The position numbers were made by a program, and so were the translations under genes. The notes below the pieces were generated by a model. That model was not told where the DNA came from. It did not search any database and saw nothing but the letters and a program-made list of their open reading frames with translations. Shown here piece after piece: positions 1,171 through 21,929 of a stretch of 21,929 nt of DNA. Origin of the DNA: a virus; the IMG/VR virus record IMGVR_UViG_3300028840_001889, positions 1 through 21,929 of that record. One strand, written 5' to 3'. Positions within the stretch are counted from its first letter, which is position 1; each line of letters opens with the position of its first letter.

Positions 1171-1210
1171 GCTCAAGAAAAGATTCAAAATGTGCTTTTA
1201 AAGGAAAAAA

Positions 1211-1222
1211 TGATTATAATCA
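1211..1222. promoter_or_regulatory. 12-bp perfect palindrome containing a TATAAT box, upstream of scaffold gene
   Basis: TGATTATAATCA is identical to its own reverse complement and contains a perfect -10 hexamer (1215-1220 on the plus strand). It sits 66 bases before the scaffold start in the divergent region 1128-1286. The -35 position at 17-base spacing reads GTGCTT and is weak. It could be a promoter for the capsid operon, a regulator-binding site, or both. The rest of the gap shows only AT-rich sequence and the scaffold ribosome binding site. Confidence 0.35.
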
Positions 1223-1286
1223 ATTCCAGTTGAGCTGTGCTCGCTGCTTGTTCCTGTGGTCAAGTTAACTATATTTGGAGAAAGAA

Positions 1287-2015: not shown

Positions 2016-2031
2016 AACGGAGTAATAAGCA

Positions 2032-3162: not shown

Positions 3163-3176
3163 TTGGAATTTGATTA

Positions 3177-3713: not shown

Positions 3714-3714
3714 A

Positions 3715-4077: not shown

Positions 4078-4078
4078 C

Positions 4079-4480: not shown

Positions 4481-4494
4481 TAGGAGAAAAGACA

Positions 4495-5232
4495 ATGCCT
4501 AATATTACTTCAATTGGTGCAGGGATTTACACTTCCCTTGCGTACGTTACAAATACTGTTGTCGAAGGTACTCCCACTGCTGGTGAAGTTAGCCGCGATG
4601 AAACAGGTGATGAATGGCGAGTTGAATTTGAGACTCGTACTACGCCAGGTGCTGCAGGCGATAATATCCCTGTAGCATGGGCAGCTACTGCAAATGCAAG
4701 AGCTTTTGGTCGTATTAGAGAGTTTCCGAATATTGGTATTCCTGCTAATATCGTAAACGTACCTCAGTACGGTCAGCCGTCTTCTAGCCAGGTGGTAGGC
4801 CAATCTGACCCGCCGAACCTTGATTTTACTTTCAACTATGTACCATCTATTCACTATTTTATTGATGATCTGCGAGCTTCTGGTGAAACTAAGCTGTTCC
4901 GCATTCGTCTTTCGAATGGTGAATTGGTTAAGTCACAGGGTGGTACTGCTGCTAATGAATCTGGCGGTACTGATGGTGCAGGTTCGGCAGACGTCCAGCT
5001 GCCTTACGAGTGGCAAAATGGCGCAGGTGATGATGGTTCAACTATTCGTGAGTTCTCTGATTTCTATCTGTTCGGATCAGTAGCTTCTTTCGAAATTGTA
5101 CCGGCCCTTACCGATGCTAACCAAGTAAACGTCTCACTGACTATTCAAGGTCAGCTGAGTGGTCCTTGGAGTTACGCAAACCCGACTGATGTTACTACCA
5201 GTCTGGTTTATGGCAAGCCGCCTACTGCTTAA
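4495..5232 (+). CDS. major tail tube protein
   Basis: A 245-residue protein located between the tail terminator and the chaperone genes, with a strong ribosome binding site (AGGAG 4482-4486). Segments such as GETKLFRIRLSNGELVKSQG and FYLFGSVASFEIVP, and a closing VNVSLTIQGQLSGPW strand, are typical of tail tube subunits, whose beta-sandwich stacks as hexamer rings around the tape measure. No added C-terminal immunoglobulin-like domain is apparent. It shares the capsid gene's optimised codon choice (CTG, CGT, GGT), which separates both from the TTA-rich neighbours. A GC hairpin follows 14 bases after the stop. Confidence 0.85.
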   Translation: MPNITSIGAGIYTSLAYVTNTVVEGTPTAGEVSRDETGDEWRVEFETRTTPGAAGDNIPVAWAATANARAFGRIREFPNIGIPANIVNVPQYGQPSSSQVVGQSDPPNLDFTFNYVPSIHYFIDDLRASGETKLFRIRLSNGELVKSQGGTAANESGGTDGAGSADVQLPYEWQNGAGDDGSTIREFSDFYLFGSVASFEIVPALTDANQVNVSLTIQGQLSGPWSYANPTDVTTSLVYGKPPTA

Positions 5233-5246
5233 TTAGCTTAACTAAT

Positions 5247-5264
5247 GGGGGCCTCATGGCCCCC
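5247..5264 (+). terminator. GC-rich hairpin after the major tail gene
   Basis: GGGGGCC, loop TCAT, GGCCCCC forms a perfect 7-bp stem in the 55-base gap after the major tail gene. The U-tract of an intrinsic terminator is missing (TAATCC follows). It may therefore act as a partial terminator or a 3' stabiliser of the major tail protein mRNA, lowering downstream expression relative to the tube protein. The hairpin is certain; its function is inferred. Confidence 0.45.
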
Positions 5265-5287
5265 TAATCCCTGACTAAGGATTTGCT

Positions 5288-5518
5288 ATGGATGATGAAA
5301 AGCCTTTTGATAAATCCTACGTTATGCGGGTAACGGCTAATAATGCAAAGAAGTCAGTTGATATCTCAATCAATAAGACTTCTCAACGCTTGGAGGAATT
5401 TCCACCTAAATCGGTAAAGTGGCAAGAAGTATTAGATACGTTGCACGCATTGCATCAATTTCGTAAACTAATCGATGACTTCCAGGTCCATAATCCTGGA
5501 TTATTTTTGAAGGAGTAA
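5288..5518 (+). CDS. small tail-region protein of unknown function
   Basis: A 76-residue charged protein. It starts at ATG 5288 with AAGG about seven bases upstream and ends seven bases before the next start. The N-terminal half looks beta-like (YVMRVTANNAKKSVDISI). The C-terminal half is helical (WQEVLDTLHALHQFRKLIDDF). The family is not recognised. Its position between the major tail protein and the chaperone gene suggests a part in tail assembly, and co-expression with the next gene is likely. There is no signal peptide or membrane segment. Confidence 0.7.
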   Translation: MDDEKPFDKSYVMRVTANNAKKSVDISINKTSQRLEEFPPKSVKWQEVLDTLHALHQFRKLIDDFQVHNPGLFLKE

Positions 5519-5524
5519 TATTCA

Positions 5525-5758
5525 ATGGCTGATGCACTTTCATTATTGAAGAAGGTGAATACAAAAGAGATTGATTTTAACGGTGATAAGGTTGAGGTCA
5601 GAGAGCTCACCTTTAATCAAGTTAAAGAATTCTCAGAGCTGGCTAAGGAATTGGAAGACGTTGAATCGTTTGAAAACAATCGTCAGTCTTTGGGATCTAT
5701 CATTCGAAAGGGTGTAATAGGTCTTGAGGATATCACCGATGAAGATCTCGGTGTATGA
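5525..5758 (+). CDS. tail assembly chaperone, first part (gpG-like)
   Basis: A 77-residue acidic protein with a strong ribosome binding site (AAGGAGT just upstream). Its opening (SLLKKVNTKEIDFNGDKVEVRELTFNQVKEFSELAKEL) follows the tail-chaperone pattern of a small beta domain that reads '...V.vReLt..q..e...la'. Such proteins coat the tape measure until the tube is built. Its last 20 bases overlap the next gene in another frame, the usual gpG/gpT arrangement. The terminal codons GGT GTA TGA would let a valine tRNA slip back two bases from GTA to GTG and enter the downstream frame, so a -2 fusion product is possible. Confidence 0.75.
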   Translation: MADALSLLKKVNTKEIDFNGDKVEVRELTFNQVKEFSELAKELEDVESFENNRQSLGSIIRKGVIGLEDITDEDLGV

Positions 5759-6071
5759 ATTAGCTTTTCACTTAGGCTATCCTGTACATGAAGTTATGGA
5801 ATGGCCTATCTCAGAAGTAAAAGGGTGGTTTGAATACTTCAAACGGCGTCCGATCGGTTGGAGAGATGACCACCGTTTCTCTTATCTGTTAGCAGCTTGG
5901 GGTGTTAAAGAGAAGCCCCATAAGCTATTTGCATCCCTCCATACTATTGAAAGAGAGCGTCAACTGCGTGAAGAAAGAGATCACAGCAGTGATGCTAGTA
6001 AACTTGTTGGATCTGGTTTCCTTCATAAGATGATTAAGGATACTGGATGGGATGTGAATGTAAAGGAGTAA
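5739..6071 (+). CDS. tail assembly chaperone, second part (gpT-like)
   Basis: About 110 residues beginning MKISVYELAFHLGYPVHEV. The pattern 'ELAfhLG....e...w...E...W..y' is that of the small phage tail chaperone (gpT / DUF4035-like) group. The rest is charged and helical (IERERQLREERDH). ATG 5739 is chosen because GAGGA 5726-5730 lies eight bases upstream, which supports independent start. A TTG at 5724 also opens this frame but precedes that site. Relative to the upstream chaperone the frame is +1/-2, not the -1 of lambda. In many phages the two parts are fused by programmed frameshifting, so both modes remain possible. Confidence 0.7.
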   Translation: MKISVYELAFHLGYPVHEVMEWPISEVKGWFEYFKRRPIGWRDDHRFSYLLAAWGVKEKPHKLFASLHTIERERQLREERDHSSDASKLVGSGFLHKMIKDTGWDVNVKE

Positions 6072-6075
6072 TATT

Positions 6076-6477
6076 GTGCCAGTTACTGTAAAGATAAAAG
6101 GTGCAGAACAAGAATTTGCCAAAGCTAATTCTGATTTAAATCAGTTTGTAAATAGTGCTATGCGCGCAAGAGCATTTCAAGCTCTTGGAGATTTAAAATC
6201 AGTTACTCCAGTTGATACAGGTAGAGCAAGAAATTCTTGGACACTTACTACTTCCCCAACTGAATTTAGAAGCACATTAGTAGCGACAAATGCATTATCT
6301 ACTACTTTACTGAGTCCACCTTCTAAAGATACTATCGAAAAATTATACATTACTAATGGTGTAAGTTATATCGATAAATTAAATGCAGGAAGCTCTAAAC
6401 AAGCCCCTTCTCGTTTTATAGAAAATACTATACAAAAGTATTTTGAGATTGAAGGGTTAGTTTACTTAGAGGTTTAA
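6076..6477 (+). CDS. HK97 gp10-like tail completion/minor tail protein
   Basis: A 133-residue protein with a GTG start (6076) and AGGAG 6063-6067. The signature VTPVDTGRARNSWTL followed by YIDKLNAGSSKQAPSRFIENTI is that of the HK97 gp10-like group (lambda gpZ-type tail completion proteins: 'tGraRnsW ... Y...l..GsskqAP..fi'). It acts at the head-tail joint or the tail end. In most siphoviruses the gene lies between the stopper and the terminator; here it sits between the chaperones and the tape measure, an unusual position. It ends one base before the tape measure start, so translation is probably coupled. Confidence 0.65.
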   Translation: MPVTVKIKGAEQEFAKANSDLNQFVNSAMRARAFQALGDLKSVTPVDTGRARNSWTLTTSPTEFRSTLVATNALSTTLLSPPSKDTIEKLYITNGVSYIDKLNAGSSKQAPSRFIENTIQKYFEIEGLVYLEV

Positions 6478-6478
6478 T

Positions 6479-9400
6479 ATGGCTATTCGTTTAGAGTTTG
6501 TATCTGATTCTAAAAAAGCACAAGCTGATTTAAAACAATTAGATCAAGCTGTTAAAAGTATTGATAAATCCACTGAAAAACTTTCTAAGTCTTTCAGTTT
6601 TATTACGAAGAGTCTTGGTACATTAGTGGCTACCTATGCCACCTTTCGAACTATTTCTTCCTCTTTAGATTCATTTACAAGATTAGAGAATAGAGTTGCA
6701 CTAGTAACAGGTAGAACTAAACAACTCTCTATTGTACTTAACCAAGTACGAGATATATCCTCACGTACAAGAGCGCCTATAGATGATATTGCACAAACAT
6801 TTAATAGATTAGCAATAAGTGCAAGAGCATCTGTTCCTGAAGCATTAGCGTTAACAGAGACTTTAGTACAAGCAGGGAAGATTGGTGGCGGTTCTGTTGA
6901 AACTATTTCTTCTTCTCTAATCCAGTTAAATCAAGGTATTGCTGCTGGTGCTCTTAGAGGTGAAGAATTAAATTCAGTATTAGAAGGATTGCCAAGAGTA
7001 GCACAAGCATTAGCTGATGAGTTAGATGTAGATATTGCAGCATTACGTTCCTTAGCTGAACAAGGACAAATTACTTCTAGAGTAATTAAGAATGCCTTAA
7101 AAAATAGTGCTGAGGAAATAAGAAAAGAATTTGAACTTATTGAACCCACAATAAGTGAAGGGTTTCAAGCAATAGAAAGAGCCGGTAAAAATCTAGTAAA
7201 GAATTTAATAGGTGCTTTTGGTTTCGGAGGGAGTTTAGGTAGAGTTCTTGATAATTTTGCCAAAACTTTAACAGAATTTGGAGATAAATTAGCATTAAGA
7301 ATAATTATCATTACTTCTAAAATAGAAACACTAATTATTAAATTCCAAACAGCTTTACTTAAAGCTGGTATTGGTTTAGATTTTTCCTTTAGAGAAATTT
7401 TTGGAGGAATTCTAGCGAGTACAGGAATTTTATCTCTAGCTCTATTTCGAATTATTTCTTTTACTAAAGCTGTTGCATCCCTTTTCTTTGGATTATTTAT
7501 CTATCTGGTAGGGCGATCTATTGTACCAGATATGTGGAAGCGAATTGTAAAAGTAACTGCTGATTCAACTAAAGATGCATTAAATGTAATTTCTGGTTTT
7601 ACAGAGGATACAAAAGAAAGTTTTGATGAATTAAATAAAGAAATTAAAAATCCATTAGAAGAATTAGATAAGAATTTTAAAGCTAGTTTTGAAATTGGTG
7701 TTTTAGGAGTTTCAAGTTTAACTGCAATTTTTGCTTTAGTTGCAAAGAAATTTTCTTTAGCATTAGTTACTGCATTGACTGGTACATTGATAGCAGGTAC
7801 TTCAGGATTATTTTTAAAATTTGCAAAAGAAACTACAAATGTAGTCAGAGAAGAACTTGCACCTTTATTTAGTAATATAGCAAGTGATTTTGTTGAGACT
7901 TTAGTAAAAGGGATTTCTGGAATAACACTTTTAGCTTCAGTAGTAGCTAGCCCACAATTGGCATTAAATGCCGCAGTAATTGGAGCAGTAATATTTAATG
8001 CTCTAGCCAAATTTTTTATAGGTAGTAATTATTTATCAATAGTAGGACAAATTATTGGTAAAGTGATTAAAGTAGGAGTGATTGGTGCATTAGCTTCTCT
8101 CGCTTTAGATATTAACCCTATTACTCTAGCTTCAGATACATTACGTCTTCTTGATTTTGCAGGAATAGTAACTTTACTAAAAATAATAGCTGTTGCTATT
8201 GCTGAAAATCCAGTAGCAGCAGGTCTTTCTGCTACATCTCTCGCTATAGGAGTGGCTGGTGGAGAGAGTATAAAGGAATTACTTGTAGGTCTTGGAAAGC
8301 TAATAGTTTTTCCTGGATTAGCTGTTGGTGAAGGAACTACACTTGGCGGACGTCAAAGAGCATTAAATAGAAAAGTAGCACCCGCTGAAGCAAGAATTGC
8401 AGAGATAGATGCAGATTTAGAAACCTCTAGGGATCGAATTTCTCGTTTTACAGCAAATGCTAGAAGAAATGTACAAGCTCAAAGAAAAATCATAGAGAGA
8501 CAACAAGGATTAGAAGCAGAAAGATTAGCCTTAATAAGCAATGTAAGAAAGAATGTAGGTAAAGAGAAAAAAGTTTTAGATGCAAAAATAGCAGCGGCTA
8601 AACAAGAAAGAGCAACATTACAACAAGAATTAAGTAGAGAACGCAGATTGCGTGGTGGAGCCATCTCTAGTAGGAGAGGCATCAGAGAAGAAGGGCTTAT
8701 TTTAAGGCGGGATATTAAAGTACCACAAGCAGAATTAACTGCTACTAATGAAGCATTAGCTAAAATTCGAACTACTATAGTAGATGGTGCTACGCGTGCT
8801 GGTATTGTATTAGGCACTGCCGTCGGTACTTATGGTGGTGTTGTATTAGGTCAACGTTTTGTTGATGAATTTGAATTAGAAGGTGGAAGAGCACTTGCAG
8901 CAATTTTAGCTTCTTCAGCAGTTGTACAATCAGTTACCGCAGTAATTGGAGGAGGAATTGGTAATTTAGTAGCTAAGATTCTTATAGGTATTCCTGCAAT
9001 TTATAGAGCAGCTAAAACAGCATTATTTGCATTTTTGAATAATACTTTTTTAGCGAAATTATTTGCATATGGTAGAAGTTTTTTATTAGAACTTAAATTA
9101 GTATTTACTAATGCTTGGCGGAGATTAGCTGCTATTCTACAAGCAGATGCCGTTAAACGTTTTATAGCTGCATTTAAAAATATTTTACTACTAATTGGAA
9201 TAACTACATTATTAGTTAAATTCAGTGAAAATCTTCAATCTTTTGGAGCTAAGATCCGAGAGTATCTATTACAACAACCAGTAATAGGTCCAGTATTAAT
9301 TGGTCTTGAAGCATTCTGGGATAGAGCCGCTAGTTGGTGGGATACCATAAAAACCTTTATAGAAGGTTTAGATTTAGGTGGTAAATTAGAAGCATTAACA

Positions 9401-12400
9401 GATTCAATTAAGAATTTTAGTCCATTTGGAATTAATATTTTTGGTGGCGGTAGAGATTCGAAATTTGAAGATTCAGTAGTTAGACTTCCTGGAGATTCTT
9501 CTGCAAAAAATTTCAAATTATATGCTACAGGAGGATTACTAAAAGGCCCAGGTACAGGTACTTCTGACTCTATACCCGCTCTTTTATCTAATGGTGAATA
9601 TGTAATAAATGCTAAAGCTACTGCAAAAAACAAACCATTATTAGACGCAATTAATTATAGTGGAGTTGTTCCTAAATTTGCTACTGGAGGAATGGTTAAT
9701 TTCACTAATACATTAGTGCAAAGTGCAGGTAAAGAAAGTTTAGCGCGTGTAATAGAAGGTCGTAAAGAATTACAAGAGGCTATAACCAATAATAAAGTTA
9801 CAGAATCTATTCTTAAATTAGATTCTTCTAGTATTAAAGAAAAATATTTTAATAAAGAATTAACTAATCAAGAATATTATTATTGGAAATTAAATCAAGA
9901 GTTAAAAGAAGCAGATACAGAACGTGTACAGAAGTTTTATGAAAGAACTTTAGGGGTTGATCTTAATAAAATTAAATCTGACCTCGGTATAGAGAAGTTT
10001 TCTTATAAAGAAGGAGGTTTTATAAATGAAATCTCTGGAATGAATAATAACCCTAAACTATTAGATAAATTTAATGAATATTTTATCTCGAAAGATAAAG
10101 AAAAAAATTCATATGCAGATGGTGGTTTAGTAGGTTTTCTAGATAGCCTGACTAATAAAGGACCTACATCTTATGATTATATAGCAAATGATAATGCTTT
10201 ATATAATGCAGTAGATCAAATACAAGAAGCAGTAGTATATAAATATCGTAATTTAGATATCGCTAAAAATGGTGATAAGTTCATTAAAGATTTAGCAGAT
10301 TTCTTGAATGTTAAATTAGTTCAATCTGCATCAACTGATACTCCTCGGTTTTATCCCGGAAAAAATAAAGCAATTGTTCCTCTGATAAAAGGAAATTACA
10401 ATCCAATTAATGCATTAGCGACTGGTGCCCATGAAATGGGCCATGCAGTTTCTGCTCGTGCAGGTAATAGTTTTTCAAATTATTATGAACTGTATCAAGA
10501 AGAGACAAGAGCAAGTCAGATTGCTAATAAATTAAATCCTACTAAATATAATCTTTGGGATGAAGGATTAGAAACGGCATTAGGAACGTATGAATCTGCA
10601 ATGCTTGATGATCATGCCAATTGGTATAAATATGTAGTGGAAGATGCTAAAAGAACTTATGGAGGTAGAGGACCCTCTCTTGAAGCTGCTATACGAAATG
10701 TAGGAACTGATCTCATTTCTGGAATTAAGAATGTAGATTTAGAACTGTTAAAAGAAGTCATAGTAACTGGCCAAAGCAGTCAAATTATTGGTTCAGTACT
10801 TGCAGAAATAGCTTTAAGGGATGTAATCAATAGTGAGTTCTTTTCATCATTTTTTACTAGTGGCAAGACTGCAGAACAAATAGCAGATTTAAAGGAAAAT
10901 GATTGGCCCGTATGGGCGAGAGCAGCATTATATGCAGCTGGTATTACAATTGATTTTATCAATAAAGAAGCACCTATTGCACTTTTAAGTGGTGGTATTG
11001 GTTCAGTTATAGGCGCCTTGCCTAAATTACTAAGATTGCCTACCTTAATTGGTACAGGTATTTTTGCAGCAGATGGAATAATTAAACCAGAAAAATTTGC
11101 TTCAGGAGGGAAAGTATCAGGTCCTGGAGGCCCTAGGGAAGATAAAATCCCTGCTATGCTTTCTGCTGGGGAATATGTAATAAATGCTGATGCAACTAAG
11201 AAAAATAAATTATTATTAGATGCAATCAATTATGGTAATGTAGTTCCTAAATTTGCAGATGGTGGTCTAGTTGGTTTTTCTACTAGTTTATTACAAATTG
11301 CAGGTAGAGATAGTTTAAATCGTGTAATAAAAGGGCGTAAAGAATTACAAAAAGCAATAGATTCTAGTGAGATAACTGAAGAAATTCTAAAATTAGATAA
11401 GACGACTATTAATGAAAAATACTATAACAAAGAGTTAAATAATAAACAGTATTACTATTGGAAATTAAATCAAGAGTTAAAAGAAGCAGATACAGAACGT
11501 GTTCAACAATTTTATGAGAAGAATTTAGGAGTTGATCTTGACCAGATAAAATCTGATCTTAATATAGATAAGTTTTCATATCGAGATGGAGGCCCTGTAG
11601 GTATATTAAAATATATACCTAAGACTGCAGAAGCCTCTTTAGAAGTAGCTAATTATACTGATGAAATCGCAAAAGAATTATCAGGATTCAACGAATTAAA
11701 ACAACGTTTTGAATCTGATATTGAAAGTTTAATTATTTCTTTTAATACTGATTTTGGAAGACCTATTCGTGTATATCGTAAAATCGCTGGAAATTACGCA
11801 TTCAGCCCATTTGATCTTTTCAATGAACAAGTAATTACAGATACTATTCAAAATTTAAATATTGGCGATAAAGTACAATTAGACCCTGTTCTTTTACTGC
11901 CTGATCTGAATCAAGCAGCAGACAAAGAAGAATTAGCATCGATGTATGCTATTTCGATACATGAATTAGGACATGCAACACAATTTTTAGATCTTTGGAA
12001 AAAGAATTATAAGGGAGATTACTCATTTGGAATTGGTTCATTAGAAGATCTTACAGGTAATACAGTAGTAGCTCCAGGTGATCTTTTATTAGAATGGAAT
12101 TCTATTCCATCAATTGATAGAGAGTCTTACGCGAATAAATTTGCAGCTTTATATACAAAACCTGTACAAGAAAATTTAAATCGGAAAACGATTGATAACA
12201 CTATAGCTGGAAGTATGAATTCCTATATTGGAGTTTTATTAGGTGAACTTTTAACTTTAATGCCAGATATTTATGATTTTAATCAAGAGAATCCTTTACC
12301 TCCATTTGCTAGTAATAATCTTATTAAAGATTTTCTTAATGATTTTAAGGAAAGTAATGCATTTAAATCAAAGATCACAGAAATAAATACTGCTTTTGAT

Positions 12401-14686
12401 TTGTCTGATGGTAGATTAGATAATCTTTACCTCGGTGTTTCACCAGCAATCATAAATGAAGTTATATATAAGTTATTATCTTCTTATATAGGTAATAATG
12501 ACTTTTTTGATAAATTTTATCAGAAATACGATAGACAGGATCCAATAGCAGCTTTAGAACAACTTCCTGAATCTGATCTTCAAAAACTTCAAAGTATATT
12601 CTTTTCTATACAAAAAGAAGTACAAACATTAATTGGTTCAATACCTAAATCACAAATTTTCAATCGAGTGCTATCTAAGGCTGGAAGTACAATTGGCCAA
12701 TTCGCAATGGGAGGTAAAATCTCAGGACCAGGCGGCTCTAGAGAAGATAAGATCCCTGCTATGCTCTCTAATGGAGAGTATGTAATAAATGCTGCTGCGA
12801 CTAAGAAAAATAAACCACTTTTAGATGCTATTAATTTTGGTGGTATGATACCTAAATTTGCCCAAGGAGGGCAAGTATTACAATACTTCCAAGACGGTGG
12901 TGAAGCTCAACCAAGGCAAACTGTTTTAGAACAATTAATTACTCCTGAGACTGTCAAAATTTTTGATCAAATTGGAGCACTTTTAAAAGAAAGTATTGGA
13001 ACTACTTTCTCAGAAGTAATAACTGCTGTAAAAAGTGCATTTGAAGAAAAAGGATTTGTAGGAACTATTGGCGTAGGAATCGAAAAAGTTGTAACAATTC
13101 TCGCTACTCTTTTAGGTGTTATCGAAAAAGATACTACTACTAAAGAATTAGCCAGTATTGGCGATTTAATTAAAAGCGGTAATATAAATATTTCTACAGC
13201 TATAACTGAAGAAATCAGTAAATTTAATAAATTTGGTTTAGGAAATTTAATTTCTTTACAAGGTGTAAATCTAAGTGATTCTAGAATTCCTGAAGAAAGA
13301 CAAACACTTTTACTACAAGCGGTCAATCAATTAAATTTAGAACTGACTGCATTACAACAAAGAAGAGAAGCAGGACAAGAAGCTTCTACTCAAGAATTAT
13401 TATCGATAAAAAATCGAGCTGCTGTTATTGAAGGCCAATTAGATACTATACGAAATATAAATGCAGGAATACAAGAAAATACTGCTGAAGCAAATAAATT
13501 TTTAGCAGAATTAGTTACAGGTGGTGTAGACCAAACGAAAACAGATGTAGCCACTTTATTTAAAAATATTATTAGAGGAAAAGATTTTAAAGAATCTTTT
13601 GATCAATTTGTAAATAGTTTTTTAGATAATCTTGCAGAAGTTTCCTCTAAAGCTTTCACTGAAGCTGTTTTTAAAGCTTCTGATAAATTCTTAGAAAATG
13701 CAACTAAAGCACTTTTCGAATGGCTGTCAAGCGGGGGCGATAATACTGGAACTATTGTTGGAGAAGGTATTAAAAATATATTTGATACTATTACTGGCAA
13801 GAGTTATGAAGCAGATATTAACCCTTTAGGTAGTGAGGTTGCTAAGAATTATTTAACAGATCCTTTTGGTGGAGCTACTAATGCAGTAACTGAGTTTAAT
13901 CCTTTTGGTACTTCTAAGACTTTAAGTGATCCATTGGATCAAATTGTTAAAGATAGCAGTACTTTTGGTGATGTATTAGGTAGTATTGATACATCAGGTA
14001 CTGTACCAGATTTAACTAAAGGTGGTGAAGTAACTATTGGAGAAGAGGGTGCTTTAGGTGGAGAAGCTTTTTTAACTTCACTTGAATCTATCTTTAATAA
14101 TACTCTTTCCAGATTTGGTGGAATTTTTGAGAGTCTTCCACAATTATTACAAGATGGTTTTTCTGCTGCTACAGATTTATTAGCAGGACTATTTAGTAGT
14201 TTTGGTGGAGGTAGCGGAAGTGCAGGAGGTACTGGTGGATTAGTTGCATCAGTACTTGGATTTGCTGGTGAAATATTTGGTGCTTCTGGCGGATACATCA
14301 AAGGATCAGGATCAGGTACCTCTGACTCTATACCTGCAATGCTTTCTAATGGTGAATATGTAATAAATGCTAAAGCTACTAAAACATTCAGGCCTTTATT
14401 AGACTCTATCAATTCTGGAGCCAGCATCCAATACAGAGCAACTGGCGGATACGTAGGAGACAGCTATGGACTCAATTCTGTATACAAAGAAGCGATGCAA
14501 AAAGAAGAAGCCAAAAAAGTAGAAAACCGTAATAATGTGAACAATATTACCTTTGCATTAGAAGGTGATTTTGATTCTAGAACAGAACGTGCTATCAGAA
14601 AATTCGTCAATAGTGGTGTACTACAAGCTAATTTAAATCAAGCTAATGTAGAAAATGGTGGCAACCCCGTGTTTAAAGGTAGATAA
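6479..14686 (+). CDS. giant modular tape measure protein with two HExxH domains
   Basis: A 2735-residue protein that sets tail length. Residues 60-250 match the tape-measure N-terminal domain (RISSSLDSFTRLENRVALVTG-like region, then ALTETLVQAGKIGGGS and AGALRGEELNSVLEGLPRVAQAL). Several hydrophobic segments follow at about 270-350, 405-445 and 470-600, then a coiled coil at about 630-730 and more hydrophobic stretches to about 960. From residue 1015 the protein is modular. Four GG-x-GEYVINA motifs have GG at 1018, 1543, 2078 and 2604. A 106-residue helical repeat occurs twice (1075-1180 and 1600-1705). HEMGH 1318-1322 has Glu1342 downstream (ETRASQIAN), and HELGH 1828-1832 has Glu1882 downstream (ESYANKFAA). 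These are zinc gluzincin-like sites. At the usual ~0.15 nm per residue it would imply a tail near 400 nm, or less if the embedded domains fold compactly. Ribosome binding site AGAGG. Confidence 0.9.
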   Translation: MAIRLEFVSDSKKAQADLKQLDQAVKSIDKSTEKLSKSFSFITKSLGTLVATYATFRTISSSLDSFTRLENRVALVTGRTKQLSIVLNQVRDISSRTRAPIDDIAQTFNRLAISARASVPEALALTETLVQAGKIGGGSVETISSSLIQLNQGIAAGALRGEELNSVLEGLPRVAQALADELDVDIAALRSLAEQGQITSRVIKNALKNSAEEIRKEFELIEPTISEGFQAIERAGKNLVKNLIGAFGFGGSLGRVLDNFAKTLTEFGDKLALRIIIITSKIETLIIKFQTALLKAGIGLDFSFREIFGGILASTGILSLALFRIISFTKAVASLFFGLFIYLVGRSIVPDMWKRIVKVTADSTKDALNVISGFTEDTKESFDELNKEIKNPLEELDKNFKASFEIGVLGVSSLTAIFALVAKKFSLALVTALTGTLIAGTSGLFLKFAKETTNVVREELAPLFSNIASDFVETLVKGISGITLLASVVASPQLALNAAVIGAVIFNALAKFFIGSNYLSIVGQIIGKVIKVGVIGALASLALDINPITLASDTLRLLDFAGIVTLLKIIAVAIAENPVAAGLSATSLAIGVAGGESIKELLVGLGKLIVFPGLAVGEGTTLGGRQRALNRKVAPAEARIAEIDADLETSRDRISRFTANARRNVQAQRKIIERQQGLEAERLALISNVRKNVGKEKKVLDAKIAAAKQERATLQQELSRERRLRGGAISSRRGIREEGLILRRDIKVPQAELTATNEALAKIRTTIVDGATRAGIVLGTAVGTYGGVVLGQRFVDEFELEGGRALAAILASSAVVQSVTAVIGGGIGNLVAKILIGIPAIYRAAKTALFAFLNNTFLAKLFAYGRSFLLELKLVFTNAWRRLAAILQADAVKRFIAAFKNILLLIGITTLLVKFSENLQSFGAKIREYLLQQPVIGPVLIGLEAFWDRAASWWDTIKTFIEGLDLGGKLEALTDSIKNFSPFGINIFGGGRDSKFEDSVVRLPGDSSAKNFKLYATGGLLKGPGTGTSDSIPALLSNGEYVINAKATAKNKPLLDAINYSGVVPKFATGGMVNFTNTLVQSAGKESLARVIEGRKELQEAITNNKVTESILKLDSSSIKEKYFNKELTNQEYYYWKLNQELKEADTERVQKFYERTLGVDLNKIKSDLGIEKFSYKEGGFINEISGMNNNPKLLDKFNEYFISKDKEKNSYADGGLVGFLDSLTNKGPTSYDYIANDNALYNAVDQIQEAVVYKYRNLDIAKNGDKFIKDLADFLNVKLVQSASTDTPRFYPGKNKAIVPLIKGNYNPINALATGAHEMGHAVSARAGNSFSNYYELYQEETRASQIANKLNPTKYNLWDEGLETALGTYESAMLDDHANWYKYVVEDAKRTYGGRGPSLEAAIRNVGTDLISGIKNVDLELLKEVIVTGQSSQIIGSVLAEIALRDVINSEFFSSFFTSGKTAEQIADLKENDWPVWARAALYAAGITIDFINKEAPIALLSGGIGSVIGALPKLLRLPTLIGTGIFAADGIIKPEKFASGGKVSGPGGPREDKIPAMLSAGEYVINADATKKNKLLLDAINYGNVVPKFADGGLVGFSTSLLQIAGRDSLNRVIKGRKELQKAIDSSEITEEILKLDKTTINEKYYNKELNNKQYYYWKLNQELKEADTERVQQFYEKNLGVDLDQIKSDLNIDKFSYRDGGPVGILKYIPKTAEASLEVANYTDEIAKELSGFNELKQRFESDIESLIISFNTDFGRPIRVYRKIAGNYAFSPFDLFNEQVITDTIQNLNIGDKVQLDPVLLLPDLNQAADKEELASMYAISIHELGHATQFLDLWKKNYKGDYSFGIGSLEDLTGNTVVAPGDLLLEWNSIPSIDRESYANKFAALYTKPVQENLNRKTIDNTIAGSMNSYIGVLLGELLTLMPDIYDFNQENPLPPFASNNLIKDFLNDFKESNAFKSKITEINTAFDLSDGRLDNLYLGVSPAIINEVIYKLLSSYIGNNDFFDKFYQKYDRQDPIAALEQLPESDLQKLQSIFFSIQKEVQTLIGSIPKSQIFNRVLSKAGSTIGQFAMGGKISGPGGSREDKIPAMLSNGEYVINAAATKKNKPLLDAINFGGMIPKFAQGGQVLQYFQDGGEAQPRQTVLEQLITPETVKIFDQIGALLKESIGTTFSEVITAVKSAFEEKGFVGTIGVGIEKVVTILATLLGVIEKDTTTKELASIGDLIKSGNINISTAITEEISKFNKFGLGNLISLQGVNLSDSRIPEERQTLLLQAVNQLNLELTALQQRREAGQEASTQELLSIKNRAAVIEGQLDTIRNINAGIQENTAEANKFLAELVTGGVDQTKTDVATLFKNIIRGKDFKESFDQFVNSFLDNLAEVSSKAFTEAVFKASDKFLENATKALFEWLSSGGDNTGTIVGEGIKNIFDTITGKSYEADINPLGSEVAKNYLTDPFGGATNAVTEFNPFGTSKTLSDPLDQIVKDSSTFGDVLGSIDTSGTVPDLTKGGEVTIGEEGALGGEAFLTSLESIFNNTLSRFGGIFESLPQLLQDGFSAATDLLAGLFSSFGGGSGSAGGTGGLVASVLGFAGEIFGASGGYIKGSGSGTSDSIPAMLSNGEYVINAKATKTFRPLLDSINSGASIQYRATGGYVGDSYGLNSVYKEAMQKEEAKKVENRNNVNNITFALEGDFDSRTERAIRKFVNSGVLQANLNQANVENGGNPVFKGR
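9521..9691 (+). repeat. tape measure GG-motif copy 1
   Basis: This codes residues 1015-1071: TGG start, GPGTGTSDSIPALLS, NGEYVINAKAT, then KPLLDAINY and PKFATGG. It belongs to the 'GTSDSIPA' subtype shared with copy 4. It marks the start of the first ~525-residue unit. Such glycine-rich GEYVINA motifs recur in phage tail proteins; their function is not known to me. Confidence 0.85.
9701..10018 (+). repeat. tape measure helical repeat A
   Basis: This codes residues 1075-1180. It aligns without gaps to repeat B, offset by exactly 525 residues, at about 70% identity by hand count (73 of 106). Together with GG-motif copy 1 it makes a 166-residue collinear duplicated block. It ends in the turn FSYKEGG. 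Within it, 9881-9927 is identical at DNA level to 11456-11502. Confidence 0.85.
10430..10504 (+). other. HExxH metallopeptidase-like site 1 inside tape measure
   Basis: This codes HEMGH (residues 1318-1322) through Glu1342. The histidines and glutamates fit a zinc site, and ETRASQIAN matches the ExxAxx(F/I)A helix of gluzincins such as the ImmA/IrrE (M78-like) group. A preceding hydrophobic strand (KAIVPLIKG) could be the substrate-binding edge strand. Activity is inferred from motif only. Confidence 0.6.
11096..11266 (+). repeat. tape measure GG-motif copy 2
   Basis: This codes residues 1540-1596: FASGG start, GPGGPREDKIPAML, AGEYVINADAT, LLLDAINYGN and PKFADGG. It belongs to the 'PREDKIPA' subtype shared with copy 3. 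It starts the second unit, 525 residues after copy 1. Confidence 0.85.
11276..11593 (+). repeat. tape measure helical repeat B
   Basis: This codes residues 1600-1705, the partner of repeat A. It ends FSYRDGG. The best-kept core is WKLNQELKEADTERVQ. After this block the two units diverge strongly although both go on to an HExxH site. Confidence 0.85.
11960..12145 (+). other. HExxH metallopeptidase-like site 2 inside tape measure
   Basis: This codes HELGH (residues 1828-1832) through ESYANKFAALY. Glu1882 lies 50 residues after the second histidine. The HELGHA ... ExxANxFAA pattern is close to the ImmA/IrrE-type gluzincin signature. The preceding strand VQLDPVLLLPDL fits the edge strand. The site lies 285 residues into unit 2, versus 300 for site 1 in unit 1. 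Enzyme activity is inferred. Confidence 0.65.
12701..12871 (+). repeat. tape measure GG-motif copy 3
   Basis: This codes residues 2075-2131: FAMGG, GPGGSREDKIPAML, NGEYVINAAAT, KPLLDAINFGG and PKFAQGG. It opens a third unit of 526-527 residues that lacks both the helical repeat and any HExxH. Confidence 0.85.
14282..14449 (+). repeat. tape measure GG-motif copy 4
   Basis: This codes residues 2602-2657: ASGG, GSGSGTSDSIPAML, NGEYVINAKAT, RPLLDSINSG and RATGG. It is nearest to copy 1, including shared codons around the DSIP and EYVINA cores. It lies about 80 residues from the C-terminus. Confidence 0.85.
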
Positions 14687-14688: not shown

Positions 14689-15345
14689 ATGTCTATTACA
14701 GGAAGCACTCTTCCGATAAGCGTTAGAGAGATATCTACTCCTTATACAGTATGGGGTGAAGAGAATGTTAATATAGTTGAATCCTCTAATAATAAGATTT
14801 ATATTTCTCGTGGCGGTGGTTTTAGGTATCGGGTCACTTTAAATATCATTCCATTCAACATTCTTTCTTCAGAGTCTGCTGTCAGATTTGAATTTTTAAG
14901 AGCTTATCTTACTCGGAATCCTTCTTTTTCTATTCCTATTCTAAATACAATTCCTAACCAAATTGTAGGAAGTCCGGAGGTAATTGCTTCATTTACCGAT
15001 AATGAACCGGGATTTGATACTGTACTTGTAGATACTGGTACATTTACAGGCGATTTTCAACCGGGACAGTATATTAAATTCAGTAATAAAGAAAAGGTAT
15101 ATCAAGTAGGAGATTATAATTCTGGTACAGGAGTTATTACCTTAACACAAAAACTTAGACAAAAAGTTAATCCTGAAAACGCAATAAACAAAACTATCTC
15201 ATATGCCGGAGTTGATTATTATGGAACTGCTTTTGATGGAATCACAGGTAGTTTTGTGAATGAAGATTTTGGTAATCCAGTTGCGAGTATTGACGACGGT
15301 ATTTTAGGTAGAATAAGTCCATTAGTTTTAATTGAGAATATCTGA
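14689..15345 (+). CDS. distal tail / tail-tip structural protein
   Basis: A 218-residue beta-rich protein immediately after the tape measure (AAAGG upstream, start 14689). The FRYRVTLNIIPFN strand and the segment FQPGQYIKFSNKEKVYQV, followed by GTGVITLTQKLR, resemble phage minor tail proteins in which a small beta-barrel ('G.yikf.g..kvYqV ... l.p.lr') is inserted. Its position right after the tape measure fits a distal tail (Dit, lambda gpM-like) role as adaptor between the tube and the tip. No enzyme motif is seen. It is followed after one base by the next gene, implying coupled translation. Confidence 0.6.
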   Translation: MSITGSTLPISVREISTPYTVWGEENVNIVESSNNKIYISRGGGFRYRVTLNIIPFNILSSESAVRFEFLRAYLTRNPSFSIPILNTIPNQIVGSPEVIASFTDNEPGFDTVLVDTGTFTGDFQPGQYIKFSNKEKVYQVGDYNSGTGVITLTQKLRQKVNPENAINKTISYAGVDYYGTAFDGITGSFVNEDFGNPVASIDDGILGRISPLVLIENI

Positions 15346-15346
15346 T

Positions 15347-15973
15347 ATGGCTGTTAATTTTTCTGCTACAGTATTCGAACAATTATCTGGTAAAGATTTT
15401 ACTGCATACAATTTCATTGATATCTTTTTAGATGGTCCTCCTCCTTCTGTACCTCCAAGTTATTTCTCTGATATTCATTTATCAGATTACTTAGAAGTGA
15501 TAGAACACCCTGTTGATGGTTATATCTATGAGCCAGAACTGATCAAATCATTAGATCCTCCTGCAAAAACGGGAACCATAACTCAAGAAATACAACGGAT
15601 TTTAATATCTCAACCATTGGGACGAGAAGATGATTCAGCAGAATTTATTAATCGATTAGGTAATAAGTACTATGCTGCTAGAATGAATATTAGGACATAT
15701 TTAGAAATAAATAATCAAATTTATTTTGATGAACCTGTAAATGCAAGTGAAGGGATGTTAAAATCTGTTTCTCGTAATTTAAGTTCTAACGATGTAGTTT
15801 TAGAATTTACCAACTCCTATGGAAAATTAGATATGGTAAGAGCACTTCAAACAACAGAAGGCTCGATTAAAAGATTTAAAGCAGATGATACCTCCTTTGA
15901 TAAAGCCTCGACTAGTATTAGTCAAAGAGTGCTGGAATGGGGCGGTACTAAATTTAATACAAAGGACCGTTAG
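15347..15973 (+). CDS. tail-tip hub protein
   Basis: A 208-residue protein between the distal tail gene and the J-like gene, the slot of lambda gpL or of tail hubs of other siphoviruses. It contains TAYNFIDIFLDGPPPSVPPS near the N-terminus and a later NKYYAARMNIRTYLEINNQIYFDEP strand-rich part. Unlike lambda gpL it has no cysteines, so it carries no Fe-S cluster. The start at ATG 15347 is used because it lies one base after the preceding stop; a TTG at 15332 would overlap that gene. The precise family is not recognised. Confidence 0.55.
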   Translation: MAVNFSATVFEQLSGKDFTAYNFIDIFLDGPPPSVPPSYFSDIHLSDYLEVIEHPVDGYIYEPELIKSLDPPAKTGTITQEIQRILISQPLGREDDSAEFINRLGNKYYAARMNIRTYLEINNQIYFDEPVNASEGMLKSVSRNLSSNDVVLEFTNSYGKLDMVRALQTTEGSIKRFKADDTSFDKASTSISQRVLEWGGTKFNTKDR

Positions 15974-15975: not shown

Positions 15976-18900
15976 ATGGGATGGGGTTGGGTAGTTGCGC
16001 AGATAGTTATTGCAGTAGTTTCCTATGCTTTAGCACCAAAACCTAAGCAACGTAAAGAAAGTCTTCAAGTACAAAGACAAGGGGTTGATCAACCTTTAGA
16101 GCGATTATATGGTACTCGCCGCATGTCAATGGTGATTACTAATGCTCAAACCTCTAAAAGAATTTTAAGCCCCTCTGATTCTAAAGTCACAGGGTCTGCT
16201 AATGCTCCCGATGTATATGTCAATTTTACACATAGTAATCAAACTGATTATACAAAATCTGACGTATTAGGCGCGCTACATGTACAAGGTCCAATCTGTG
16301 TAGTTGGAAGAGAAAATGCAGAATTTAGTAATCAGTTTGTAAATCTGCAAGAGATAGATGTAAATAATGGGGCTGATGAAGCAGATGTAGTTTTAGTCAA
16401 TGAACTTCCTTATTATGATAAAGCACTAAAATCTTTTCAGAAGAGATTACAATATGGCGGTACTGCGCATGCACTCTGGTTATCTGGAGGTAAGAGAGAT
16501 GGTTGGGCAGAATTAATAGATTCATTTGGAGTAGAAACTGATCAATGGACAAATTGTATACATGCCTCTGCATTAGCATGGCAAAAGATAAGTGAACATG
16601 ACTCTATTGTTTTTCAGGGATTACCAGAATGGTCATTTAAACTAAGATCTAATAACTTATATGATCCTCGTACAGATGGTTTTGATGTTTATAATCCTTC
16701 TGCTTGGACAGGGCGCTCTGATAATCCTGCATTACAACTGCTCGATTATTTATTAGATCCTATTTTTGGGGCTGGAGTACCTTCAGACGAGATTAATTTT
16801 TCTAGCTTTCAAGAGATGGCTAGAATTGCTGATATTCCAATTGCAATTAGATCCGATAAAACATTTGTAAAAGAAGTTCCACAAGTAACAACGAGTGATT
16901 TTAATTTTACTGTACTGAATATTCCTGTTGCAAATTATATTCAAGCCTTACAATTATTAGGCTATACACAAGAACAAATTGATGATAAGGTACGCATTCA
17001 ACAAGCTGGTTATCAAGCTACAGTCTCACAAGAAACCAGTATTAGATATTTAATGGAATCTAATATCACATTAGATACTAATGACCCACTGAATGAAAAT
17101 ATTGAGCAGTTACTTTCTGCCTTAAGAGGCGCACGTTTATTCAAAGAACCTAAAGGAAAATGGAAAATTCTTCCTGCATGGATTGTTGAAGAAGATATCA
17201 CACAAGAAATTACAGGACAGACAGGAGTAGGTCCTTTTAAACAAAATTTTGCAGTTGATCAAGCATTCATTACAGTTAAAAAGAATGGAACTCCAATAAC
17301 AATTGCCAGTCAGCAATTAGAAGACGCTTCTGGTGGTTTAGATACAATTTTCATTCAAAAAGAGAGTGCTACTTGGAATTCAAATACTAACACGCTAGTT
17401 ATCAATTTTGCAGAAGGCAATACTCCAGATGCAATTATTGGTAACCAATATACTTTAGTAAATTTTGGTGTCGGATCTTCTTCAAAAATTATTTTTGTCC
17501 CTCAGAGTGGAAACCCTGTTGTAAATTACACATTAGGAACTTGGACAATAACTCCACCTATTATTCAACAAGCTCCTAGCACAAATCAAAATTATGGGCG
17601 GTCTTATTATTCTCTTAGAACTCATAGTCAAATACCAGAATTTGTACAAGGTATAACCTTACAAGCTGGTGATGCATTAGTTCCTAGTGATACTCTAACC
17701 ATAGAGTATGATCCATCAGTAGTGCCTGGAATTCCTATTTCAGCACATATAATTTCAGATCCTGTAGATTTAGGATTAAATTATGATGCTATTTATGATG
17801 GTGAAGGAGATGATCAATATCAACCGACTGCTACAAATTTACCGTTAATACAGATAGTAGATGTTTCAAAATCTAGTTTTAATTCTGTATCCTTAGATGA
17901 CAAATTAAATCAATGTATCATTAAATTTCCAGATGAAGATAATTTCTATAAAACAAATGAGGTAGTGTGGCCAGAGACTGATAGTGTAAAGCACGTAGAA
18001 TTCTTAGCAGAAGATAATGATAAACCTTTAGTAAGAACTATATCGAGCAATTCTATTACCAATAAAGCATTAGCATTAGATCATGCTGAGTTTATTGTAC
18101 GACAATCTAGATCTTCTAATTCTTTAGCTTACAATTTGAGTTCTACTGCTTTAATGCTAGAGCCAAATGATATTGTAAAAGTTACGGATCCATTACTAAA
18201 TTTAGAAGACGTTGGTCCGAGTAATCGTTATTGGCGTGTAGTAGAGAAAAAAGTAAATGCAGATGCAACAGTAGATATCTCATTCATACAGTATGAAACA
18301 GAGGATTACACTTTTGTTTCTGATGATTACGATGATGATAGATATCAAGCAGTACTAGATGAATTACCCACGGCAACTTGGGCAGTTCCTCCTTTTGTAA
18401 GATTCCCTCCAGGAAGTTCAGCAGGGTCAGGTAGATTACAGTGGATTGCACCAGAGACTGCTACTATATCTGGTTATTTAGTAAGAATGTTTTCAGGCCC
18501 TAAATGGGTAATTAACAATATATATTCTGCAGGGCAAGCAGTATTCCATATTCCTACAGAAACAGTCTATGTAGCAAATGTCGAAACTTCTAGTGAACCT
18601 AGTGAAGTCAACTCTGACTGGAGAGCACTAGAAGATGGTTTTACAAAATTAGGTATAGCTGAAGGAACTTCTTTAGTAGTCTATGATTTAGAATATAACA
18701 AAGCTTATACATTCTCAGTACAGGTGATAGTACCCACTAGAGGTGCTGGTCCAGCCATTTACCACACTGAGGCATTGGCTCAAGAATTAGCTCCTCCTGT
18801 AGATTTTAGCTGGGAATCTTCAGACACTACTATTACAATAAGTTGGCACAAAGGAATTTTTGAAGATGCGATTGATTGGTTAGGCCCAGTTCCTGGAGCG

Positions 18901-20889
18901 CCTTGTAAAGCACTTGTTAGAGGGAATGATACTGGAGAAGCTTATAGAATTTATGTGAGAGAAATAGGTCCAGTAGATCAACTACCACTAGTCGGTGAGG
19001 GATTGGGCGCGGTTAGAGATTTATCATTTGGTGCAGTACCTTGGGCAGAAGATGTAAATCCGACATGGTTATATGATCCTGCTTATACTGGTGGAGATCC
19101 TTTTGATATAGCTAGCTACAATTTCTTATCTCTTGCACCAGGGCCTGATACCTTTGAAGAGGCATTGAATCAAGGTATTGTGATTGCACCTACTGTTGTA
19201 TTTAATGGCATTGAAGAGATTGGAACAACTGGAAGTAATACTTTCACTCTTTCTGGTTTACCCGAGAATACTGCTTATCAAGTCTGGGTAAAAGAGATCT
19301 ACCCTTATAATGAGAATTTATACTCATTACCTGGTCCTCTTGATCCTTATGATTTACCTGGATATCCTTCTGCGTGTGGCATAGGCGATCCTGGTTTTGG
19401 ATTATTAGTACAAACTTCTTTTGTAAGAAGATTTTCGGCAACTGGTTATTTTTCTCAAGATCCTCCCTCTGATGCGTTATGGTTTTCAGAGCGGGATGCA
19501 TGGTTTAAAATTGTTCCTGATCCTGTAAAATTCTTCATACTAAACCTGCATGTTAGAAATGATAGTAATACTGCTTGGATAGATATTTTAAATGGCGGTG
19601 GCAATGAAGTTGTATACCTCATTTTTATGGCATATGAGGCAACTGCTTGGGAAGATGATAGAGTAGTTCACGTTTTCTTTCAAGAAGAAGAACCTATAGT
19701 TTCTGATATTACTAACTATGATAATCCTGCAGCAGGTCCTGAACATAAGGCCTTTGGTCAAGAAGACCAGTGGTATGATATTAATGATGGTAACAAAAGG
19801 TATTATTGGGATGTACCTTTACAAAAATGGATTCCCTACAATGGAGACGGTATAACTACATCTTATATACATAATCACTTTAAAAGTACTGAACCTGTTG
19901 ATGGGATTGATGGCCATGAGCCTGGTAATACTTTTGACGTTGGTGATTTATGGTTTGATACAGATGACATACAAGGACAATTTGAGAATCAGTATCAGTG
20001 GACTGGTAGTAATTGGGAAGATATTCCTAATACCTCTACTAATTATTTTTATGCGGCAGCAGATAATCCTTTAGCAAGAGATGATGGTTGGACTACAACT
20101 TTCTTTTCAAATGTAAGACCTTTTTATGATCCTCGGTATGATGGGTCTGGGGACCCGTTTGACATTTCTAACTATTATGTGCCTGCTGGATTAACTTTTC
20201 AACAAGCTGTGGATCAAGGATATATCACAGCACCTGTTCAACCTGCTACTGGAAATGGTTATGGTGATATTCTAGTAGTAACAGAACTTCCAGTAATTCT
20301 TTATTGGTGGGATGGTTTTATTTGGAGGAGAGGTCTCTCTGAAGATGGATTTGGAAGTGGTTCAGGAGGATCTATTGATGCAGGAGTAACTAGGACTTAT
20401 CGTCAACCTGAACCTCCCACAGAAGAAGATACTTATATCCCTGATCCTAATTGTATTCCTGAACCAGGAACAGGGGCTTGTGTAAGTGATCCTGTTTCAT
20501 TTTATCAATCAAAAATAATTTCAGATTTTAGTACAGAGATTTCTACTGGGGTCATGAAAAATGAGGCTAATGAAGAGATTATTAGCCAATGCGGCCATAT
20601 AGCTTATACTAATGCTTCTATCAATACTAACGAATTTGTAACAGGTAACCAATCTTTAGAATTTTCAGGCAATGGTACTTTAAATCTTGTAAATCAGTAT
20701 GGTGATCGTCCCGCTTGGTATGGAGAGGGTATGACCATAGATATGAGAGTTAAATTTAAAACGACGCCATCTGCTGATAATAGAGTTTATTTCTTTTACT
20801 CGGGAGCAATAAAGGACAATACTTATCATCGTTTTGCTTTATTAAATTCTGGTGGATCATTAGTATTAGAGCTAAAATCGGCACTTTAA
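15976..20889 (+). CDS. J-like tail tip / receptor-binding protein (reading frame broken at 3' end)
   Basis: The intact frame gives 1637 residues. It opens with a hydrophobic segment (residues 3-20) followed by APKPK and GVDQPLERLYGTRRM, typical of J-like central tail tip proteins of Gram-negative siphoviruses. Residues 100-780 form the hub-like body. Fibronectin-like beta domains follow from about 790 to 1000. They contain a CBM5/12-like insertion (Trp844 to Trp882, WVINNIYSAGQAVF ... DW). A motif YDPxYxGxDPFDI...QGxxxAP occurs twice (1031-1073, 1383-1421). Short W-rich strands recur (DQWYDINDGNKRYYW, GDLWFDTDD...YQWTGSNW). From residue 1513 a LamG-like lectin domain begins and is cut by the stop at 20887, while the -1 frame continues it. 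AAAGGA precedes the start. The role is host-surface, probably glycan, recognition. Confidence 0.85.
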   Translation: MGWGWVVAQIVIAVVSYALAPKPKQRKESLQVQRQGVDQPLERLYGTRRMSMVITNAQTSKRILSPSDSKVTGSANAPDVYVNFTHSNQTDYTKSDVLGALHVQGPICVVGRENAEFSNQFVNLQEIDVNNGADEADVVLVNELPYYDKALKSFQKRLQYGGTAHALWLSGGKRDGWAELIDSFGVETDQWTNCIHASALAWQKISEHDSIVFQGLPEWSFKLRSNNLYDPRTDGFDVYNPSAWTGRSDNPALQLLDYLLDPIFGAGVPSDEINFSSFQEMARIADIPIAIRSDKTFVKEVPQVTTSDFNFTVLNIPVANYIQALQLLGYTQEQIDDKVRIQQAGYQATVSQETSIRYLMESNITLDTNDPLNENIEQLLSALRGARLFKEPKGKWKILPAWIVEEDITQEITGQTGVGPFKQNFAVDQAFITVKKNGTPITIASQQLEDASGGLDTIFIQKESATWNSNTNTLVINFAEGNTPDAIIGNQYTLVNFGVGSSSKIIFVPQSGNPVVNYTLGTWTITPPIIQQAPSTNQNYGRSYYSLRTHSQIPEFVQGITLQAGDALVPSDTLTIEYDPSVVPGIPISAHIISDPVDLGLNYDAIYDGEGDDQYQPTATNLPLIQIVDVSKSSFNSVSLDDKLNQCIIKFPDEDNFYKTNEVVWPETDSVKHVEFLAEDNDKPLVRTISSNSITNKALALDHAEFIVRQSRSSNSLAYNLSSTALMLEPNDIVKVTDPLLNLEDVGPSNRYWRVVEKKVNADATVDISFIQYETEDYTFVSDDYDDDRYQAVLDELPTATWAVPPFVRFPPGSSAGSGRLQWIAPETATISGYLVRMFSGPKWVINNIYSAGQAVFHIPTETVYVANVETSSEPSEVNSDWRALEDGFTKLGIAEGTSLVVYDLEYNKAYTFSVQVIVPTRGAGPAIYHTEALAQELAPPVDFSWESSDTTITISWHKGIFEDAIDWLGPVPGAPCKALVRGNDTGEAYRIYVREIGPVDQLPLVGEGLGAVRDLSFGAVPWAEDVNPTWLYDPAYTGGDPFDIASYNFLSLAPGPDTFEEALNQGIVIAPTVVFNGIEEIGTTGSNTFTLSGLPENTAYQVWVKEIYPYNENLYSLPGPLDPYDLPGYPSACGIGDPGFGLLVQTSFVRRFSATGYFSQDPPSDALWFSERDAWFKIVPDPVKFFILNLHVRNDSNTAWIDILNGGGNEVVYLIFMAYEATAWEDDRVVHVFFQEEEPIVSDITNYDNPAAGPEHKAFGQEDQWYDINDGNKRYYWDVPLQKWIPYNGDGITTSYIHNHFKSTEPVDGIDGHEPGNTFDVGDLWFDTDDIQGQFENQYQWTGSNWEDIPNTSTNYFYAAADNPLARDDGWTTTFFSNVRPFYDPRYDGSGDPFDISNYYVPAGLTFQQAVDQGYITAPVQPATGNGYGDILVVTELPVILYWWDGFIWRRGLSEDGFGSGSGGSIDAGVTRTYRQPEPPTEEDTYIPDPNCIPEPGTGACVSDPVSFYQSKIISDFSTEISTGVMKNEANEEIISQCGHIAYTNASINTNEFVTGNQSLEFSGNGTLNLVNQYGDRPAWYGEGMTIDMRVKFKTTPSADNRVYFFYSGAIKDNTYHRFALLNSGGSLVLELKSAL
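19066..19194 (+). repeat. tip protein YDP-DPFDI motif copy 1
   Basis: This codes residues 1031-1073, with WLYDPAYTGGDPFDIASYNF, then FEEALNQGIVIAPT. It is similar to the copy at 20122-20238. Confidence 0.7.
20122..20238 (+). repeat. tip protein YDP-DPFDI motif copy 2
   Basis: This codes residues 1383-1421, with FYDPRYDGSGDPFDISNYY, then FQQAVDQGYITAPV. The conserved frame with copy 1 is YDPxYxGxDPFDIxxY and QGxxxAP. Confidence 0.7.
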
Positions 20890-21929
20890 ATAGTACATTA
20901 TCAGGTGTTGTAGATGATACGCTCACTACTGCATCTTTATCTTCATTTTCAATAGATCCATTAGACTGGAACGATTATCGGGTTGTATTCTCTGCTAGAG
21001 ATCAAGAGTGTTATGTCTATGTAAATGGTACTCGTTTAGATACACTCTCTGTTTCTGGACTATTTAGTGGACATGCTTACTATACAATGAGTCTGCCTAC
21101 TACGGCTTTCTGCACTTATTATATGTCAGATGGTACTGGCACTAATGGTATCAATGGTTATATAGACTTTATTAATTATACTTCATCTGCTTTATCTACA
21201 GAAGCTACATATCTTATTGCTGATTTTAATGTATTTAGACAACCTTATAGCGAGGTGATACACACAATATATTTGAATTCTGCTAATTTTGGTTTTAATC
21301 TAGGTTGGCAACAATCTACAGATAAATTCTGGCAGCCATATGCAGACGGTTGGTTATTTACTAGGTTTGATGTTATACAAGGTGGTTCTGCACCGACGAA
21401 TGAAGGACTTGTTCTTATTGATGAACAAGAAGAATTTAAAACTCTGATTGGTAATCCTTCTATTGAACCTCCCTTATTGTCAGATGGGATTGCATCTATA
21501 AAAATTACCTCTGGTACTGATCAAGGTTTTCTTTTTCATGGAAATGAAGTAGGCCAAAGTTTTCAAACTTATGTTTTTGTTTTAAAACATGACGGATCTG
21601 CTACTACTAGAACTTTACTATGCCTTGGTAATATAGGTCCAAGTGAGAATCATGTTAGATTTTTAGTAGAATTGACTTCTACACATCAAATTAGATGCTC
21701 AGTTTATGATACTAATACCAGTAGTCGCCGTTATGTAACCTCTACTTTAACAGTACCTACTGATACTGTTTGTTCAATTATAATCGCATACGATGATTAT
21801 CGTTTTTTCTATTCAAGTCCAAGAGCAGTATATTTAGGAATTAATGGTGAATCCGAGGAGCTTATTTCACCAGTCGATACCGCCTTTACTTATCCCGCAT
21901 TATCAGATAAACATATAGACAATACATTA
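20877..21929 (+). CDS. out-of-frame continuation of the J-like tip protein (partial)
   Basis: From ATC 20877 the -1 frame is open for 351 codons to the window edge, with no stop. Its first residues (IGTLNSTLSGVVDDTLTTAS, then WNDYRVVFSARDQECYVYVNG) supply the missing second half of the LamG-like fold begun in the upstream frame: the 'W..yrvvf....vyVNG' strand is the LamG hallmark. A second LamG-like domain follows from about 21405 (FLFHGNEVGQSFQTYVFVL ... IIIAYDDYRFF). There is no ribosome binding site or start codon at the junction. This is therefore the same protein, separated by one missing base in an AAAA run (20874-20877) or by a frameshift. The joined protein would exceed 1980 residues. 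Confidence 0.8.
   Translation, partial: MGTLNSTLSGVVDDTLTTASLSSFSIDPLDWNDYRVVFSARDQECYVYVNGTRLDTLSVSGLFSGHAYYTMSLPTTAFCTYYMSDGTGTNGINGYIDFINYTSSALSTEATYLIADFNVFRQPYSEVIHTIYLNSANFGFNLGWQQSTDKFWQPYADGWLFTRFDVIQGGSAPTNEGLVLIDEQEEFKTLIGNPSIEPPLLSDGIASIKITSGTDQGFLFHGNEVGQSFQTYVFVLKHDGSATTRTLLCLGNIGPSENHVRFLVELTSTHQIRCSVYDTNTSSRRYVTSTLTVPTDTVCSIIIAYDDYRFFYSSPRAVYLGINGESEELISPVDTAFTYPALSDKHIDNTL

Follow-up and report, generated by a model that had tools for sequence, protein, structure and literature searches.

The window analysed here is the whole of IMGVR_UViG_3300028840_001889, a linear virus record of 21,929 bp. A conserved head-module gene (2032–3162, plus strand), whose product we take by inferred name to be probably the major capsid protein, was the query that found the relatives of this record, including the sister record L016 (IMGVR_UViG_3300017963_000424; 41,834 bp). 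Farther along the same strand lie a shortened gene for tail assembly chaperone G (5525–5758), a frame encoding the T part of the G/GT chaperone (5739–6071), an intact tape measure gene (6479–14686) whose 2735-residue product matches TMP_3 (PF20155; E 2.5e-47) and many PHROG tape measure families, two small tail genes, and a gene for a J-like tail tip or central fibre protein, which runs in frame 0 from 15976 to 20889 (1637 codons; TAA at 20887–20889). Between 9590 and 14414, the tape measure gene carries internal repeats that have diverged: the segment at 11167–11592 is ~78% identical to ~9592–10017 and shorter copies occur at 12767–12861 and 14281–14414. Upstream of these structural genes, the minus strand of 181–1127 holds two ORFs, of 211 and 126 aa. 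A sequence in the first, MKLFLITGLPRSRTFWFSQYF, looks like a loop that binds nucleotides or PAPS, but this ORF had no match in Pfam. The 181–1127 stretch is identical in L016.

Homology and gene order both mark the tip protein as J-like. It matched phrog_31 (central tail fiber J; E 3.9e-13) and phrog_37728 (E 4.4e-28), with a Phage-tail_3 match (PF13550; E 8e-4) below the cut-off; its N-terminal and middle regions are ~30% identical to the tips of relatives; and its gene follows the tape measure and the two small tail genes. In relatives, one uninterrupted frame of as many as 2047 codons encodes the tip, and a length of ~2,000 residues is therefore nothing unusual in this phage group. No relative of the C-terminal part of the window tip was present in the collections searched, and the C-termini of the relatives' tips showed no homology to it.

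The tip frame closes with the letters GAG (20869–20871) CTA AAA TCG GCA CTT TAA, ending the 1637-residue ORF exactly where a first-pass annotation, made from the letters and a list of reading frames, had read its stop. A second plus-strand frame, in the –1 register, is open from stop to stop over 20784–21929 and runs off the end of the record as a continuation of the tip gene. Counted from 20877 (ATC GGC ACT...), it has 351 codons open through base 21929, the length the first-pass annotation had given; at the stop rate of 6.8% set by the window composition, the chance of such a frame is ~2e-11, and an equally long one arose in none of 20,000 sequences simulated with a first-order Markov model of that composition. 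Codon log-likelihoods trained on the window's own genes preferred frame 0 to ~20800 and frame –1 from ~20880, placing the flip at ~20800–20880. A switch model and a sliding score based on these likelihoods confined the change of plus-strand coding frame to 20850–20886, which overlaps the 20869–20889 interval flagged earlier. The best-scoring switch point was 20868, and every point within ~20850–20886 lay within ~3.4 log units of this optimum. The run of four A's is less than 2 log units from the optimum, yet codon likelihood does not single it out. Because the switch point is thus uncertain over ~35 bases, the proposal that one missing A explains the break cannot be demonstrated.

Importantly, the downstream frame offers no start codon (ATG, GTG, or TTG) before 21087, which is 200 nt past the tip stop, so this frame is most simply the remainder of the same tip gene: one gene and not two. 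We consider it highly improbable that the frame is instead a separate gene overlapping the end of a complete tip gene. The tip genes of relatives often do precede an overlapping gene in another frame, but there the next start falls –70 to +14 nt from the tip stop, far from the distance seen in the window; the coding signal in the window begins at ~20880, well before the start codon at 21087; and no ribosome-binding site is evident at that ATG.

The break had been described as falling inside a LamG-like domain. A candidate concanavalin A/LamG-like (beta-sandwich) domain of weak homology can be drawn on the plus strand at 20446–21200, where the break cuts it. In its favor, the downstream piece alone aligned in half-domain style with the second half of Laminin_G_3 (profile positions 70–147). 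Against it, this match (E ~0.065; 13.8 bits versus a cut-off of 27.6) fell below threshold, as did every other profile. A break-spanning piece, made for domain and homology searches by joining the two halves with an X, matched PF06439 at E 0.014 and PF14054 at E 0.008, both below the cut-off, and hhalign comparison with five phage LamG domains recovered the W..y..v...lYvNG stretch alone, with a probability of 0.9–1.5%. The curated Pfam cut-offs for LamG and concanavalin A-like domains were missed; the break itself halves the domain. Single-sequence structure models of the two halves had pLDDT values of 34 and 39, too low for use, and a search of the PDB with the tip halves gave noise only. On these profile matches, a LamG-like domain in the tip is a plausible but weak candidate. 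Farther along the downstream frame, 21240–21929 seemingly encodes another domain rich in beta structure, perhaps a tandem copy of the interrupted one. It carries a comparable motif, YLGINGE, at about 21833; this stretch gave no profile match.

Is the break shared with other viruses? We searched viral_contigs with the tip protein, with the frame downstream of it, and with a pattern that spans the break, and found no record overlapping the break; near-identical records may be excluded from these searches. When the small tail protein (15332–15973) and the tape measure were used as well, L016 was the sole record found, and it stops short of the break. The phage database yielded no nucleotide match, distant matches only to the tip, and none to the downstream frame; bacterial genomes contained no relative of the head-module protein; and Rfam returned no hit. 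We compared 68 complete tip ORFs, the window's and 67 from related records that include near duplicates. A long open frame that spans the tip stop and lacks a start codon close by is seen in the window alone; in the other tips with a spanning frame, this frame belongs to an ordinary overlapping gene. The split of tip-gene coding across two frames in IMGVR_UViG_3300028840_001889 is real as sequence and is private to the record.

Comparison with L016 revealed a further lesion in the same record. In blastn alignments, window positions 1–10293 matched L016 in two blocks of 5753 and 4540 bases, with 0 mismatches; L016 ends at window position 10293. Between the blocks, at the plus-strand junction 5753–5754, the window is missing 115 bp that are present in L016 as bases 13723–13837. 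These bases encode the last 31 residues of chaperone G and include the heptamer GGGAAAC, a –1 frameshift site after which T follows in the –1 frame in L016. As a result, G in the window is 77 aa, compared with 107 aa in L016, and T is severed from it and left with its own upstream ATG at 5739; the T product matched Phage_tail_T (PF06223; E 6e-4) below the cut-off. Ordinary gene overlap, as an account of the chaperone region of the window, was ruled out by the missing 115 bp. The heptamer is located in the G/T overlap of L016 and in 27 of 27 relatives that have both genes, one of them with GGGAAAA, and T is always in the –1 frame. Such an arrangement is the classical programmed frameshift known from tail chaperones, with lambda G/GT as the example (PMC5009743). 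It is nearly invariant (GGGAAAC in 27 of 28 records including L016, for example those labelled L007, L010, L015, and L020) despite protein identities of 25–57%. Because L016 and all 27 relatives keep the heptamer, the window version is a deletion disrupting a tail gene that is otherwise conserved. The 24-mer across the deletion junction was found in no other record searched, and no repeat able to explain a mis-join is present at the junction.

Because the break is private to a record that also lacks 115 bases of its chaperone gene, an assembly error or a chance mutation is most likely, and not a new mechanism. A record with both the break and the 115-bp loss is out of the ordinary, and one common cause within the record is the simplest account of finding them together. 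The earlier suggestion of a sequencing error or a real truncating mutation survives to this extent: a private lesion, of either kind, is supported by the uniqueness of the break among the 68 tip ORFs and by the chaperone loss. A plain misread of the four-A homopolymer is not a particularly good fit, since 10,293 bases match the sister and longer runs are intact; the window contains 103 runs of at least five identical bases and no further frame break in its long ORFs. With base accuracy this high, a simple read error at four A's is not a compelling explanation.

We favor a defect of the assembled consensus, with a probability of roughly 0.55. In this model, the tip protein would be one chain of at least ~1,985 residues, and its gene would have been cut by a private net –1 lesion near 20850–20886, ~1 kb from the record end, by a defect like the one that removed 115 bp from the G/GT chaperone. 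We infer that the record, and not the virus, carries the lesion; the loss of the tip C-terminus probably concerns the record, and the phage population would still make the full-length tip protein. Several observations bear on this reading. First, the sliding score shows coding usage running straight across the break. Second, prokaryotic surveys regard sequencing errors or indels of recent origin as the main source of unclustered frame transitions (PMC3711429). Third, the 115-bp loss would be explained better by faulty assembly, faulty gap closing, or a chimeric molecule than by a homopolymer misread, and the break is near the end of the record. By contrast, the high quality of the consensus, with no mismatch to the sister and with longer homopolymers intact, argues against a defect. 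Near-identical records provide a yardstick: across 289 kb of overlap there were 11 gap openings, all of 1–3 nt and nearly all outside long ORFs, the clear exceptions inside long ORFs being one in-frame 3-nt change and one gap 8 nt from a contig end. By this measure, two assembly defects in one 22-kb record would be unexpected too.

The same exactness of the consensus is a point for the principal alternative, which we regard as possible, if tentative: a genuine frameshift mutation, private to a variant or defective phage genome in the sample. The tip would then end at residue 1637, and the missing chaperone bases would mark another genuine lesion, the copy being non-viable or in decay. Decay is consistent with two lesions in one record, and breaks near the 3′ end of a gene are more often indel mutations than errors (PMC3711429). 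However, the remaining tail genes are intact, including the 2735-codon tape measure. A prophage setting was considered, and a phage integrase was sought in the 41.8-kb L016, itself an incomplete record, and not found, so a decaying prophage is not indicated. Moreover, lambda tail assembly requires the G/GT frameshift (PMC5009743). By extension from lambda, genomes without the G/GT site should be unable to assemble tails and should not reach or dominate a consensus. A related proposal, that both lesions are real and that a tail-defective variant lacking the GT site and the tip end persists on the tail proteins of a co-infecting sister, seems to us very unlikely.

We give scant credence to the idea that –1 slippage on A AAA, whether programmed or spontaneous, yields a minor extended tip protein. 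The direction of the shift is right, the tRNA for lysine could in principle move back by one base on A AAA, and this phage group does use –1 frameshifting in its chaperone. The tip site itself, however, reads G CTA AAA TCG and has no in-frame X XXY YYZ heptamer, an absence that the first-pass annotation had reported correctly while still proposing slippage on AAA. Predicted folding of the downstream RNA was no better than chance (z –1.07; 27 of 200 shuffled sequences folded as well), compared with z –2.09 at the chaperone site of L016, which is the real –1 site of the family. The other complete tip ORFs show no comparable break, although none of them shares a homologous C-terminus with the window. 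Efficient transcriptional slippage has been described for runs of nine A's or T's (PMC5009743), versus four A's at the tip. Finally, phase variation, in which a change in repeat length toggles the lectin-like end of the tip, is scarcely credible: such switching would be expected to break the frame in a part with a putative role in receptor binding, but there is no contingency tract, the AAAA run is too short and is equalled or exceeded by hundreds of runs in the window (those of five or more bases having broken no other long ORF), the switch point is not fixed at the four A's, and a reverse transcriptase of a diversity-generating element was sought in L016 and not found.

When a lone environmental virus record shows a striking frame break, the rest of that record should thus be read with it. 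Here, the sister record exposes a second, larger lesion, which removes a conserved programmed frameshift site. Annotated at face value, such records would yield a tip protein that is wrongly short and a spurious pair of chaperones. Should both lesions prove real, this would be a phage variant with a defective tail.

Three known systems provide comparisons. The singleton transitions of the GeneTack survey (PMC3711429) resemble our case in that the break occurs in a single record, with coding on both sides and no conserved recoding motif; the window differs in that a sister record, mismatch-free where the two overlap, exposes a further, larger lesion elsewhere in the record. Like central tail fibre and tip proteins of the lambda J type, the window tip matches phrog_31 and the J-like proteins of relatives in its N-terminal and middle regions, but its C-terminal part is unrelated to any tip found and is split by the break. 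The site GGGAAAC is a known g-t frameshift site in HCTV-1, a virus of halophilic archaea (PMC5009743). In lambda G/GT, as the work of Xu, Hendrix and Duda (2004) is represented where PMC5009743 cites it, the shift is in the same –1 direction as here, and the phage group of the window uses GGGAAAC for it in the chaperone. Set against that account of lambda, the tip break lies ~15 kb downstream of the chaperone, in another gene, without the heptamer and without conservation, and the window record has lost the chaperone frameshift site itself.
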